Source of the DNA: Halomonas sp. GD1P12
GTDB lineage: Bacteria; Pseudomonadota; Gammaproteobacteria; Pseudomonadales; Halomonadaceae
Assembly (NCBI RefSeq): GCF_025725645.1
Contig: NZ_CP107007.1
Location: 2,914,001-2,978,000, forward strand
Direction: 5' to 3'
Length of the DNA stretch: 64,000 nucleotides
Shown here piece after piece: positions 14,077 through 24,477 of this stretch. The notes under the pieces were generated by a model, which saw nothing but the letters and a program-made list of their open reading frames with translations, was not told the DNA's origin and did no database searches. Within the stretch, counting starts at the first letter, position 1; every line of letters begins with the position of its first letter. Both the position numbers and the translations under genes were made by a program.

Positions 14077-14163
14077 TGGTACCGGTGGCCAGACTCGAAC
14101 TGGCACGCCTGTTACAGCGGCGGATTTTGAATCCGCTGCGTCTACCAATTCCGCCACACCGGC
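14077..14163 (-). tRNA. tRNA-Leu, anticodon CAA
   Basis: 87 nt on the minus strand including an encoded CCA (complement of TGG at 14077-14079). The acceptor arm GCCGGTG pairs with CACCGGT (one terminal G-U). The anticodon arm GCGGA-TTCAAAA-TCCGC gives CAA, reading UUG leucine codons. The long variable arm and the T-arm GTTCGAGTC are present. Class II size agrees with leucine. Confidence 0.96.
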
Positions 14164-18893: not shown

Positions 18894-18942
18894 TCGCCAT
18901 GTTCCAGACCCTCGCGCTTCGCCCCGACTTCAAGAGGTGGTC

Positions 18943-19869
18943 ATGAAACCCCTATCACATCTGTACATCGACTTCATGGGCCGGCGGAACCTGGCGTTCA
19001 TCGCCTCCGCCGTCATGCTGGTCGTGTCGATCGTCGCCATTGCCGCGTTCTCGCTCAACCTTGGCCTGGACTTCACCGGCGGCACGCTGATCGAAGTACG
19101 CTACGGCGCGGCGCCCTCGCTCGACGCCGTGCGCCAGCTGCTGGAAAATAGCGGCTTCCAGGACGTCTCGGTGCAAACCTTCGGCGCCTCCACCGAGGTG
19201 CTGATTCGCCTGCAGCAGGCGTTTGATCCGGACGTAGGTACCAATGTCGTCAATCTACTGCGTGAAAGCGGTGACAGCGTCGATCTGGTCCGCGCCGAGT
19301 TCGTCGGCGCCCAGGTGGGCGATCAGCTGCGTGATCAAAGCGGCATGGGCCTGATGGTCGCGCTCGGCGTGGTGATGCTGTATGTGGCGCTGCGCTTTCA
19401 GTACAAGTTCGCCATCGGGGCGCTTTTGGCGCTGATTCACGACGTCATCATCGTGGTCGGCGTGTTCGCGCTGTTCCAGCTCGACTTCGATTTGACGGTG
19501 CTGGCGGCGATCCTGGCGGTCATCGGCTACTCGCTCAACGATACGATCGTGGTGTACGACCGTATCCGCGAGTCGATTCGCACCTCGCGCATCGACGACA
19601 TGCCGCAAATCTTCAACGAAGCGATCAACGCCACGCTCTCCAGGACGCTGGCGACCTCCGGCACGACCATTCTCGTGCTACTGGCGCTGCTGGTGCTCGG
19701 CGGCGACATGATCCAGAACTTCGCCATTGCGCTGCTGGTCGGCATCGGCGTGGGCACCTTCTCCTCGATCTATATTTCCGGAGCGCTGCTGCTGCCGCTG
19801 AAGCTCTCGCGCGAGGATCTGATCCCGACGAAGAAGGCACTCGACGAAGAGGAAGAGGAGCTGCCGTAA
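18943..19869 (+). CDS. secF: Protein translocase subunit SecF
   Basis: 308 residues. First membrane helix at about 17-37, then LGLDFTGGTLIEV, a short periplasmic domain and five further helices with GYSLNDTIVVYDRIRES and TLSRTLATSGTT. It partners SecD in protein export. An AGAGGTG ribosome site just upstream selects ATG 18943 over the in-frame GTG at 18937. The gene follows secD after 49 nt. Confidence 0.97.
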   Translation: MKPLSHLYIDFMGRRNLAFIASAVMLVVSIVAIAAFSLNLGLDFTGGTLIEVRYGAAPSLDAVRQLLENSGFQDVSVQTFGASTEVLIRLQQAFDPDVGTNVVNLLRESGDSVDLVRAEFVGAQVGDQLRDQSGMGLMVALGVVMLYVALRFQYKFAIGALLALIHDVIIVVGVFALFQLDFDLTVLAAILAVIGYSLNDTIVVYDRIRESIRTSRIDDMPQIFNEAINATLSRTLATSGTTILVLLALLVLGGDMIQNFAIALLVGIGVGTFSSIYISGALLLPLKLSREDLIPTKKALDEEEEELP

Positions 19870-19983: not shown

Positions 19984-20778
19984 TCAAACGTGCGGCGCCA
20001 GCTGCTTGATCAGCGCCTTGTAAAGGCGCGGGCCGGCGGCCATCAGCTGGCCTTCGGGCTTGATCGCGGGCTGGCCCTGCAGGGTGCCGACCAGTGCGCC
20101 CGCTTCTTTCAGAAGCAGCGTGCCGACCTGCAGGTCCTGCTCTTCGAGCCCCAGCACGAAAGCGCTGTCGACGCGCCCGCAGGCGAGCTCGCAAATATCC
20201 AAAAGGCCGCTGCCGGTGGCGATCAGGGTGTCGGTTTGCGGGGCGATGTGCTGCGCCACGCTCAGGTACGCCGGCAGGTGCGCTTCGCGCAGCCAGGACG
20301 GCGGCAGGCTCATCGCCATGCGGGTACCGGGGAGCGCGGTGGACTTGCTCACGCGCATGCGCTTGTCGTTGTGCTGGGCGCCGCTGCCGCGGCTGACGAT
20401 GTACTCGTCGTCGCCAAACGGGGCGATGATGACGGCGTGCTCGGGCCGCCCCTTGATCAGACACACCACTGTGAGTGCAAAGCCTTTACCCGCCACGGAT
20501 ACGTTGGAGTAGCCGTGAAGCGGTTCAATCTTCCAGAGGGTCTCGGCGCCGTCGCCTTCGCCCGCTTTATGCGCGGTGTAGCGACCGGTCACGCCGTGCT
20601 GCGGATAGCCGCGCTCGAGCTGGTGCACGATCGTGGCTTCGGCCTTGCGCGCGGTATCTTCCAACAGGCGCTCGAGGCTGGATTCCTCGTGGGCGTTTTC
20701 GATACGTTCGCGAACGCGTAAGAATTGTTCGGCGGCGCCACGCGCGGCGCGCAGCGCAAACTGGACCATCGGATTCAT
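19984..20778 (-). CDS. suhB: SuhB-like inositol monophosphatase family protein with degenerate catalytic site
   Basis: 264 residues, aligning by eye end to end with E. coli SuhB (MNPMVQFALRAARGA; GYPQHGV; GRVDSAFVLGL; LLLKEAGALVG). The metal-binding motifs are altered. The GEESG region reads GRYTAHK, the DPLDGTTN motif reads EPLHGYSN (about 85-92), and the WDxAAG motif reads EQDLQVG. Phosphatase activity is therefore unlikely. E. coli SuhB also binds NusA and acts in rRNA antitermination without needing catalysis, so that role may be what is kept here. The ATG at 20778 has AAGG at proper spacing; 20784 is an alternative. Confidence 0.88.
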   Translation of the reverse strand: MNPMVQFALRAARGAAEQFLRVRERIENAHEESSLERLLEDTARKAEATIVHQLERGYPQHGVTGRYTAHKAGEGDGAETLWKIEPLHGYSNVSVAGKGFALTVVCLIKGRPEHAVIIAPFGDDEYIVSRGSGAQHNDKRMRVSKSTALPGTRMAMSLPPSWLREAHLPAYLSVAQHIAPQTDTLIATGSGLLDICELACGRVDSAFVLGLEEQDLQVGTLLLKEAGALVGTLQGQPAIKPEGQLMAAGPRLYKALIKQLAPHV

Positions 20779-20956
20779 GATCAAACCTTGTCACAGTGAT
20801 GTTAAAGAACGTTGGGCCGCCCGGATAAAACCAGGTAACGATTCCAGGTAAGGATGGGGGTGGGCGAACCTTTGGCGCGCAATTCTAACAGAGCCCCCTC
20901 GGGCTTGCTATCGACTCATGCTAAACTGCGCGTTTTCATCATTACCGAGCCTTTTC

Positions 20957-21715
20957 ATGCTTGAGCGCATTCGCATCGTTCTTATCGGCACCAGTCATCC
21001 TGGCAACATTGGCGCCGTGGCCCGCGCCATGCACAACATGGGCCTGGCAGATTTACGTCTGGTCGCGCCGCGCTGCGAAGTGATCACTCAGGAGAGCATT
21101 TCGCGCGCCTCCGGCGCGGATCACCTGCTGCACAGCGCCCAGGTGGTCGAGACGCTGGAAGAGGCAGTGGCGGATGCCACTCTGGCCGTAGGCGCCAGCG
21201 CCCGCTCGCGCACCCTCCCCTGGCCGATGCTCACCCCGCGTGAGCTCGGTGGCCGGCTTTCGGGCGAGTGCCGGGCCGACAACGCCCGCGTGGCGCTGGT
21301 ATTCGGCCGCGAGGATAGCGGGCTGACCAACGCCGAGCTTCAGCGCTGCCACGCCCACGTGCACATTCCCACCAACGCGGAGTTCAGCTCGCTGAACCTG
21401 GCGGCGGCGGTGCAGGTCGTGGCCTACGAGTGCCGCCTGGCCTGGCTCGACGGCAAGCCAAGCGCCTGCCCCCAGAATGAGGCTGAGCTGGATACCGAGA
21501 CCGAGCTCGCCACCCACGAGGAGCTCGAGCGCTACTTCGAGCACCTGGAGCGCACGCTGATCGCAATCGACTTTCACGACCCGGCCAAGCCGCGCCAGCT
21601 GATGGCCAGGCTTCGAAGGCTCTACCTGCGCGCCCGGGTCGAGAAGATGGAGATGGGCATCCTGCGCGGCGTGCTCACCGCGACAGAAAAAGCGGCCGCT
21701 GACAAGGCGCGCTAA
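20957..21715 (+). CDS. trmJ: tRNA (cytidine/uridine-2'-O-)-methyltransferase TrmJ
   Basis: 252 residues of the SpoU/TrmH knotted methyltransferase superfamily. TrmJ 2'-O-methylates position 32 of tRNA. The three SPOUT motifs are visible: [18 protein letters not shown] (about 13-30), [17 protein letters not shown] (about 114-130) and [19 protein letters not shown] (about 141-159). A C-terminal helical dimerisation tail follows. ATG 20957 gives the family N-terminus. It is divergent from suhB and upstream of cysE, as in Pseudomonas. Confidence 0.95.
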
Positions 21716-21795: not shown

Positions 21796-22656
21796 ATGTT
21801 TGAACGTTTGCGTGAAGATATTAACAGCGTGTTCGACCGCGACCCGGCGGCGCGCAACTTCCTCGAAGTGCTGACCAACTACCCAGGGCTTCACGCGCTG
21901 CTGCTACACCGTGGCGCCCACTGGCTCTGGAAGAAGAACCTCAAGTGGTTGGCGCGCAGCATTTCGACCTTCGGGCGCTGGCTCACCGGTATCGAGATTC
22001 ATCCGGGGGCGACCATCGGGCGGCGCTTTTTCATCGACCACGGCATGGGCGTGGTGATCGGCGAGACGGCCACGGTCGGCGATAACGTCACTCTGTATCA
22101 GGGTGTAACCCTGGGCGGCACCAGCTGGAACAAGGGCAAGCGCCACCCGACCCTGGGCGACGGCGTGATCGTCGGGGCCGGTGCGAAAATTCTGGGCCCG
22201 TTCACCGTCGGCGCCGGGGCGAAGGTGGGCTCCAACGCGGTGGTCACCAAGGAGGTGCCCGCCGGCGCCACGGTCGTAGGCATTCCCGGCAAGGTCGTCC
22301 AGCGCCCGGACCCGGACGTCGAAGCGGCACTCGAGGTCGACCCGGCCCGGCGCGAGGCGATCTGCCAGAAATTCGGCTTCGATGCTTATGGCGTGAGCCA
22401 GGACATGCCCGACCCCGTCGCCCGCTCGATGCAGGCGATGCTCGATCACATGCACGCCGTCGACGGACGCCTGGAGCGCATGTGCGCCACCCTCAAAAAG
22501 CTCGATGCCGGCTACCGCGAGGGAAAGCTCCCCGAACTCAACAGCGACGACTTCGCCGACGTGCTCGACGAGCCCACCCCGGGCTGTGAAAGCGTCGACG
22601 CCGCCCATACGCGCGCACGTTCGAACAGTCCAGAGAGCGAAACGCCCCGGCACTGA
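21796..22656 (+). CDS. cysE: Serine O-acetyltransferase
   Basis: 286 residues. SAT makes O-acetylserine from serine and acetyl-CoA, the carbon skeleton for cysteine. It is the short EpsC-type form without the long E. coli N-terminal domain, but has the left-handed β-helix: [20 protein letters not shown] (about 63-82), [20 protein letters not shown] and [20 protein letters not shown]. The catalytic His sits in FIDHGMG. The C-terminal tail after GIPGKVV is long, charged and probably flexible. The place next to iscR-iscS links cysteine supply to sulfur mobilisation. Confidence 0.95.
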
Positions 22657-22792: not shown

Positions 22793-23260
22793 ATGCGTTT
22801 GACCACCAAAGGCCGTTACGCCGTGACGGCGATGCTCGATCTGGCGCTGCACGCCGAGCAGGGCCCGACGTGTTTGAACGATATTTCCAAACGTCAGGAA
22901 ATTTCGCTTTCCTATCTCGAGCAGCTCTTTGCCAGGCTGCGCCGGGCGGGGCTGGTCAAGAGCGTACGTGGCCCCGGCGGTGGCTACCTGCTGGCCCGCG
23001 GGCTCGACGACATCAGCGTGTCTCAGGTGATCGATGCAGTCGACGAGCGTGTCGACGCTACGCGCTGCCAGGGCATGTCGGATTGCCAACAGGGCGATAT
23101 CTGCTTAACTCACTATCTATGGTGCGAGCTCTCCAACCAGATTCGTCAGTTTCTCGATGACGTCACTCTGGCAAAGCTCGCCAGGCGCCCGGACGTGCTG
23201 CAAACGGCCACCCGTCAGCGCCACCGCGTCGATGCGAGCATTCTCGCCTCGTCGCAATGA
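22793..23260 (+). CDS. iscR: Fe-S cluster assembly transcriptional regulator IscR
   Basis: 155 residues of the Rrf2 family. N-terminal winged helix ([41 protein letters not shown]) and the cluster-binding Cys/His set in [16 protein letters not shown] (about 93-108), equivalent to C92, C98, C104 and H107 of E. coli. It senses [2Fe-2S] and represses its own operon. It overlaps the proposed iscS start by 4 nt. Confidence 0.96.
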
Positions 23261-24477
23261 CCGCCCTTTTACCATTTGATGAGCCGCTGGACACCATGCC
23301 GACAACCTCCGCTCCCCCGCTCCCCGTTTATCTGGACTACGCCGCCACCACGCCGGTGGACGAGCGCGTGGCCGCGGTCATGCAGCGCTATCTGACGGTG
23401 GATCAGCTGTTCGCCAACCCGGCCTCGCGTAGCCACATGCTTGGCTGGCAGGCAGAGCAGGCCGTCGAGCAGGCGCGCCGCCAGGTCGCCGATGCGATCA
23501 ACGCCGACCCGCGGGAAATCGTCTGGACCAGCGGCGCTACCGAAGCCGACAACCTGGCGCTGACCGGCTTCATGCGCGCCAATCGCGAACGCGGCATGCA
23601 CCTGGTGACCTCCACCATCGAGCACAAGGCAGTGGTGGATACCGCCAGAGCGCTCGAAAGCGAGGGTTTCGAGGTCACCTGGCTCACGCCGGGGCCGGAT
23701 GGCCGCGTTACCCCCGAGCAGCTTGAAAGCGCGCTTCGCGACGACACCACGCTGGTATCGTTGATGGCGGTCAACAACGAGCTTGGCACCGTCAACGACC
23801 TCAAGGCGCTGGCTGACACCGCCCACGGCTTCGGCGCGGCGTTTCACACCGACGCCGCTCAGGCGGTGGGGCGAATCGAGCTTGACGTGGCCGCCCAGCA
23901 GGTGGATTTGATGTCGCTATCGGCGCACAAGGCCTACGGGCCGAAGGGAATCGGCGCGCTTTATGTGAAACGCCACCCGGATATTCGTGTCGAAGCCTTG
24001 ATTCACGGCGGCGGCCACGAACGCGGCATGCGCTCCGGCACCCTCCCCACTCATCAGATTGCGGGCATGGGCGAGGCGTTTGCGCTGATGAACGAGGTCG
24101 GCGAGGCTGACCGCGCCCATATCGACGCGCTCAAGGCGCGCTTCATGGCCGGGCTTGCCGATATCGGCGGCGTGCACGTCAACTCGCCAACCAAACATAG
24201 CGTGGCGAGCATCGTCAACGTGGCGTTCGAAGGCGTGGACGGCGAGGCGCTGTTAATGGCGCTGCGCGATGTGGCGGTATCGACGGGTTCGGCGTGCAAC
24301 TCGGCAAGTGTAGAGCCCTCTTATGTGCTGCTGAATATTGGCGTGCCGCGGGCGCTGGCCCACTCGTCGCTGCGTTTTAGCTTTGGGCGCTTTACCACCG
24401 AACACGATATCGATCACGCGCTCGGTCTGATGCGTCACGCGCTTGGCGGGCTTCGCACCCCGCAAGCCTCGAACTGA
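23257..24477 (+). CDS. iscS: Cysteine desulfurase IscS, short C-terminus
   Basis: 406 residues from ATG 23257, or 393 from ATG 23296. PLP enzyme that takes sulfur from cysteine as a persulfide. The PLP lysine is in [18 protein letters not shown] and the active-site cysteine in [17 protein letters not shown]. The core is close to E. coli IscS, but it ends [10 protein letters not shown] and lacks about the last 20 residues, the tail through which E. coli IscS binds IscU. An extra 17-residue N-terminus precedes [13 protein letters not shown]. No iscU follows. Confidence 0.94.

Follow-up and report, generated by a model that had tools for sequence, protein, structure and literature searches.

The window analyzed here, a 64,000-nucleotide stretch of the Halomonas sp. 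GD1P12 chromosome, carries a suhB gene that very probably encodes the Halomonadaceae form of the Nus factor SuhB at its ancestral locus. Judged from its residues, this protein would have lost inositol monophosphatase (IMPase) catalysis and kept both the fold and the residues that contact the AR2 domain of NusA. The open reading frame (ORF; 19984-20778, minus strand) encodes 264 amino acids (aa) counted from the ATG at 20778, with an in-frame TTG at 20784. The product matches SuhB, its nearest solved relative, over the full length, which bears out what a sequence-only reading of the window had claimed: the closest solved chains by sequence were SuhB of P. aeruginosa (PDB 8wdq, E 3.5e-46) and of E. 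coli (PDB 2qfl, E 4.4e-34). Inositol_P (PF00459) was the sole Pfam domain recognized, at 83.6 bits (gathering cut-off, 27 bits), compared with 188.6 bits for a complete-site paralogue in the same genome. The source genome (Vreelandella/Halomonas) is a single contig of 3.78 Mb and 99.45% complete; the closest named genome for the window protein among Vreelandella/Halomonas was that of Halomonas sp. S3-1-1 (98%).

Degeneration of the SuhB active site in the Halomonadaceae

The sequence-only reading had quoted three altered metal-binding motifs, GRYTAHK, EPLHGYSN and EQDLQVG. All three are present in the window protein, but the third keeps its metal-ligand aspartate (WD to QD), and to that extent the claim had to be corrected. 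By E. coli numbering, which is used below unless stated otherwise, D44 corresponds to A43 of the window protein, E67 to R66, D84 to E85, D87 to H88, T89 to Y90, W211 to Q214 and D212 to D215. The IMPase metal ligands E67, D84, D87 and D212 are thus represented by R, E, H and D, and the IMPase residues D44 and T89, which in human IMPase take part in activating the catalytic water, by A and Y. We also considered that equivalent ligands might lie at shifted positions, which the sequence-only reading had named as a finding that would refute it; the alignment speaks against this, with no acidic residue at aligned positions 44, 67, 87 or 89. Phosphatase activity would accordingly be expected to be absent from the window SuhB. 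The relevant features are given here in window coordinates, with residue counts from the 203 core sequences of the family alignment described below.

19984..20778, minus strand: suhB orthologue, putative catalytically degenerate Nus factor SuhB, 264 aa (similarity, Pfam, model and fold search)
20650..20652, minus strand: codon for A43, replacing D44 (catalytic region); A in 193 and G in 10 of 203
20581..20583, minus strand: codon for R66, replacing E67 (metal ligand); R in 201 of 203, with one H and one gap
20524..20526, minus strand: codon for E85, replacing D84 (metal ligand); E in 199 of 203, with two Q and two D
20515..20517, minus strand: codon for H88, replacing D87 (metal ligand); H in 203 of 203
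20509..20511, minus strand: codon for Y90, replacing T89; Y in 191 of 203
20134..20139, minus strand: codons for Q214-D215, replacing W211-D212 (Trp gone, metal-ligand Asp kept); in the core alignment Q in 192 of 203 at 211, and D in 199 and E in 4 at 212
20353..20361, minus strand: R140-x-R142 (E. coli R139 and R141), a pair shared by broken and complete SuhB but very rare in paralogues
20008..20019, minus strand: K254 to I257 (E. coli K251 and L254), reported NusA AR2 contact (PMC6614801 and alignment)

The substitutions are not a peculiarity of one Halomonas strain or of one bad genome. A match at E <= 1e-25 was found in all 275 Halomonadaceae genomes searched (GTDB family f1), covering 24 of 24 genera. 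For the alignment, 240 rows were collected from loci of these genomes and from database proteins, the latter picked by similarity to the window protein and not by taxonomy; removal of 5 rows under 240 aa and of 25 duplicates left 210 distinct full-length Halomonadaceae-type sequences. None of the 210 kept D44, E67, D87 or T89 (one row was gapped at 67), and the loss is thus clade-wide, a point that the sequence-only reading had recommended checking. R139 and R141 were each present in 210 of 210. Seven rows from four deep genera (g14, g16, g20 and g23) differ from the core at several of the substituted sites. Two low-completeness assemblies (G021 and G031) had suhB split in two pieces or interrupted (L078 and L081), probably through sequencing errors.

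Recurrence of the loss within Pseudomonadales

Limitation of the loss to the Halomonadaceae was rejected as well, since broken sites occur at the same locus in further families of the order. Here, the trmJ-like neighbor served as an anchor for finding the suhB locus without bias toward SuhB itself. The order genomes were picked to cover families and partly for weak SuhB matches, which favored odd families, so the following counts do not represent a random sample: 79 distinct rows at the suhB locus were broken (79 genomes, 10 families; 39 of the rows from f1) and 50 were complete (50 genomes, 29 families). Where the stretch included trmJ or secF, 78 rows were broken and 48 complete; where it included neither, 1 row was broken (L339, a suhB of f37) and 49 were complete. 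Broken sites were read in f1, f6, f7, f15, f20, f27, f37 and f38, in genus g99 of f39 and in genera g67 and g85 of f44, and complete sites in f44 genus g131, the remaining f39 genera read and the remaining families read. Similarity to named database proteins identifies f20 as Marinobacter and places the Neptuniibacter/Amphritea/Marinobacterium/Pokkaliibacter group in f37 and the Thalassolituus/Oceanobacter/Bermanella group in f38. Strong divergence of the f15 copy (L224) makes its broken-state call doubtful, and f37 represents a half-way state, with D87 and often E67 kept and D44, D84 and T89 gone.

Outside the core Halomonadaceae, broken families are variable at the pocket sites and have lost different subsets of residues. 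Over the 79 broken copies, D44 was kept in 4, E67 in 7, D84 in 13, D87 in 19, T89 in 1 and D212 in 44. The summed charge at the four ligand positions, which is -4 in a complete site, was -1 or 0 in 66 of the 79, -2 in 8 and -3 in 5. When the whole order was surveyed by proxy, E. coli SuhB had a match at E <= 1e-60 in 195 of 293 genomes; the proxy fails to separate complete from broken sites: at least 6 of the 195 are f37 genomes with a broken site, and f36 genus g80 lies outside the sites read.

Two side observations concern these data. In three f36 genomes (G521, G345 and G464; L225, L228 and L229) no IMPase-like gene was found beside the best trmJ match and the SuhB match is elsewhere; either this locus has possibly undergone rearrangement, or what matched trmJ weakly in G345 and G464 could be a different SpoU gene. 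Furthermore, the database protein P0304 shares 76.5% identity with a Bermanella-type broken SuhB, so that its label, "Pseudomonas sp. HK3," would seem to misname the organism.

To count the losses we used two trees. Of 71 genomes, 64 yielded RpoB; 63 of these entered the tree and 61 had a scored state (G288 and G345 being stateless). In this tree f1, f6, f7, f15, f20, f27, f37 and f38 fell into one clade (Shimodaira-Hasegawa-like approximate likelihood ratio support 92, not starred), and most broken copies may therefore stem from one ancient loss. The 61 genomes required at least 3 losses, or 2 when G376, with its very long RpoB branch, is set aside. A single loss, with all broken genomes as one clade, was rejected on this quick RpoB tree by an approximately unbiased test run after the tree had been inspected (p 0.0024).

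The SuhB gene tree was built with the catalytic columns masked from 107 rows, after 16 near-duplicate loci had been removed by hand; it omits loci without a family label, L224 among them. SuhB was split from the paralogues at 100 (4 paralogues in the tree), and the window gene, represented by its 98%-identical orthologue L005, grouped with SuhB and not with the IMPase paralogues. One clade (94) held 52 broken rows, and the broken f44 rows sat beside complete f44 rows. Taken alone, this tree needs 2 changes, of which the starred branches force 1, because f39-g99, on a very long branch, comes to lie next to f44; placement of f39-g99 was not possible. Recovery of a whole site once lost does not seem likely. 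On these trees, the site loss reads as an old lineage trait plus further separate losses.

Retention of the putative transcription-related surface

PMC6614801 reports a dissociation constant of 94 nM between E. coli SuhB and the AR2 domain of NusA, which rises to 141 μM when K251 and L254 are changed. The window protein has K254 and I257 at these two positions, so that at the level of sequence the contact is kept, with L replaced by I. The combination of K or R at 251 and a hydrophobic residue at 254 was found in 73 of 79 broken and 46 of 50 complete SuhB sequences and in 0 of 47 complete-site paralogues (broken SuhB versus paralogues, Fisher p 2e-28, a statistic that ignores kinship). A cruder, alignment-free pattern for the AR2 contact gave 68/79, 48/50 and 3/47, respectively, and R139 together with R141 gave 79/79, 49/50 and 1/47. 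These SuhB residues are thus missing from complete-site paralogues and retained in broken SuhB copies. NusA likewise keeps its AR repeats: two were present at its C terminus in 61 of 63 genomes, those of the source genome (G000) lying at C1:3320141-3320515, and a single repeat in two f39-g99 genomes.

The same two f39-g99 genomes have strongly diverged broken SuhB (L226 and L227), and one of them has a very long RpoB branch. Separately, E112, H113, E124 and R129 are 85-96% conserved in broken and complete Pseudomonadales SuhB and 0-23% in paralogues; E. coli SuhB itself differs at 113 and 124.

The window suhB is under purifying selection. When the window genes were compared with 50 named Vreelandella/Halomonas loci, the median ratio of nonsynonymous to synonymous substitution rates (dN/dS) was 0.123 for suhB (41 pairs with dS < 1.5), 0.115 for trmJ (37 pairs) and 0.075 for secF (36 of 45 pairs). 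An AlphaFold2 model built from a 60-row alignment was confident (predicted local distance difference test score [pLDDT] 96.1, predicted template modeling score [pTM] 0.92), and its nearest solved folds, with Z gaps under 1 counted as ties, were P. aeruginosa and E. coli SuhB, including chains from the rrn antitermination and SuhB-AR2 complexes.

Other PF00459 genes and the conserved suhB locus

Beside the window gene, the source genome has two further PF00459 matches, both elsewhere in the genome. L001 is IMPase-like with a complete site (DPIDGTVN, WDFAAG), and L002 scores over the NCBIfam CysQ cut-off; a second, intact IMPase-like gene, for which the sequence-only reading had recommended a search, is thus present. 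A close relative of L001 (E <= 1e-40) was found in 260 of 275 family genomes. Among the 15 others, 11 carry at least one other PF00459 gene, and the one read had a complete site in 11 of 11; in the remaining four (G059, G072, G180 and G186) the broken SuhB is the sole PF00459 match. G186, at 99% completeness, is the firm case, since the other three are under 90% complete. A strict rule that loss requires a spare intact IMPase is therefore not supported. For G186, a Halomonas-type genome (loci L285 and L340), neither an IMPase-type nor a CysQ-type match is listed beside the broken SuhB. In a set of 30 genomes, less G276 and G285 (poor assemblies) and G288 (suhB locus unread), a further IMPase-like gene with a complete site, matching E. 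coli SuhB at E <= 1e-20, accompanied 7 of 11 broken and 1 of 16 complete loci (Fisher p 0.0025, ignoring kinship).

The suhB neighborhood (trmJ, secDF and cysE/isc) is conserved, and the window gene occupies the syntenic position within it:

18937..19869, plus strand: secF, syntenic neighbor (Pfam SecD_SecF_C)
20918..21715, plus strand: trmJ-like SpoU methylase, syntenic neighbor (Pfam)
21796..22656, plus strand: cysE-like serine acetyltransferase, conserved context (Pfam)
22793..23260, plus strand: iscR-like Rrf2 regulator, conserved context (Pfam)
23257-24477, no strand listed: iscS-like ORF after the iscR-like gene (named from sequence)

An Rfam scan of the 64-kb window at the gathering threshold gave a tRNA gene (14080-14163, minus strand) as the sole match.

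Discussion

We conclude that the window gene most likely encodes a SuhB that has given up IMPase catalysis. By analogy with E. coli, the role for which it is selected would be rRNA transcription/antitermination and 30S maturation, and the protein would bind NusA and nut-like RNA. The suggestion that it is a natural separation-of-function variant is supported by the AR2 contact residues, the AR repeats of NusA and purifying selection; the property is not peculiar to one protein, and the role with RNA polymerase is our extrapolation from E. coli. In core Halomonadaceae, R67 and H87 at former metal-ligand positions may pair with E84 and D212, which would leave the pocket stable without Mg2+. The charge count at the ligand positions fits R67 and H87 standing in for metals.

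Several points weigh against this interpretation. K251 and L254 do not make up the whole Nus role, since recruitment of SuhB to the rRNA complex is independent of AR2 and the K251/L254 variant retains partial binding to full-length NusA (both from the available text of PMC6614801). Position 254 is V, I, L, M or A and not strictly L. R184, present in 92% of complete SuhB, occurs in 0% of broken copies, so surfaces beyond the metal site have changed too. The NCBIfam inositol-1-monophosphatase model of SuhB type (NF008027) scores the window protein at 132.4 bits, far under its cut-off of 332, although this cut-off is narrow, because two complete-site members of the order also miss it (321.1 and 242). 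Our groups were defined by the catalytic columns, where the 100% of the complete groups holds by construction, and only the non-catalytic counts are independent. Finally, two features of the pocket itself, its conservation among core Halomonadaceae, not needed for a purely structural remnant, and the retention of D212 with E at D84, by which weak metal binding becomes possible, lead to alternative explanations.

The conserved pocket could mean that the old active site was rebuilt as a ligand-binding or sensory pocket in the Halomonadaceae, as a second function beside the Nus role. R67, E84, H87, Y89, Q211 and D212 are indeed conserved in the core and variable in other broken families. We nevertheless consider this unlikely: a salt-bridged, metal-free pocket explains the conservation equally well, the seven rows of g14, g16, g20 and g23 differ at several of these sites, and the ancestral secDF/trmJ/isc context contains no neighbor hinting at a ligand pathway. 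That a weak or altered phosphatase is left, in which E84 and D212 hold one metal, is quite improbable. This explanation would account for the kept D212 and the change of D84 to Glu in core Halomonadaceae, but E67, D87, D44 and T89 are all gone, R and H occupy two metal-ligand positions, and other broken families have lost different subsets. Decay into a pseudogene, to which the lost catalytic residues and the split matches in G021 and G031 might point, we regard as hardly credible and reject, unless selection acts only on the DNA, in view of a dN/dS of about 0.12, like that of trmJ, the match in every family genome, the invariant R139 and R141 and the confident fold.

Beyond the Halomonadaceae, degenerate SuhB might form part of a wider pattern, which we put forward tentatively. 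SuhB may have been freed from metal-dependent phosphatase chemistry in a clade of at least seven GTDB families and at least one or two separate times besides, the Nus role and not catalysis being what selection keeps; members of that clade would be the Halomonadaceae and Marinobacter as well as the Neptuniibacter/Amphritea/Marinobacterium and Thalassolituus/Oceanobacter groups. In core Halomonadaceae, R67 and H87 would have replaced the Mg2+ sites. If so, the fold and assembly of SuhB, and hence rRNA synthesis, would be independent of Mg2+, Li+ and inositol phosphates in core Halomonadaceae; the relevance of Mg2+ for SuhB assembly is indicated by the title of PMC2080633. Such lineages are natural experiments in which the enzyme site was repeatedly lost and the NusA-facing residues stayed. 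They bear on the question, left open so far, of whether SuhB phosphatase activity matters for rRNA synthesis, a link called possible in PMC4807359, in the part available. The broken copies would be ready-made separation-of-function proteins from a large assemblage of marine and halophilic bacteria, and they point to R139, R141 and K251 as residues that the transcription role may need. Their public-record name, "inositol monophosphatase family protein," is probably wrong as to function.

The Nus factor SuhB and its non-catalytic role in E. coli are already known. According to the available text of PMC4807359, the growth defect of suhB loss is not tied to mutants defective in IMPase, an activity for which E. 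coli shows no obvious requirement. A natural loss of the SuhB active site is not described in the portion of PMC5516325 available, nor among the matches listed by a literature search without preprints and with few subscription journals; among those matches, the repeated, lineage-wide loss that our alignments indicate would thus have no earlier description. E. coli SuhB (PDB 2qfl, 6ib8 and 6tqn) has a complete site and demonstrated IMPase activity (PMC4807359, available text), unlike the window SuhB, in which D44, E67, D87 and T89 are gone and D84 is E. P. aeruginosa SuhB (PDB 8wdq and 8wip) likewise differs from it in having complete catalytic residues, and 8wdq is titled as a complex with D-myo-inositol-1-phosphate. 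The L001 IMPase of the same genome shares the PF00459 fold family with the window SuhB and is 28% identical to it; in contrast, it has a complete site, no K or R at 251 and a position away from the suhB locus. The closest general parallel is offered by other pseudoenzymes, which, as a class, keep the fold and a non-catalytic role, with catalysis presumed lost (PMC10211241 and PMC5106787, available parts).
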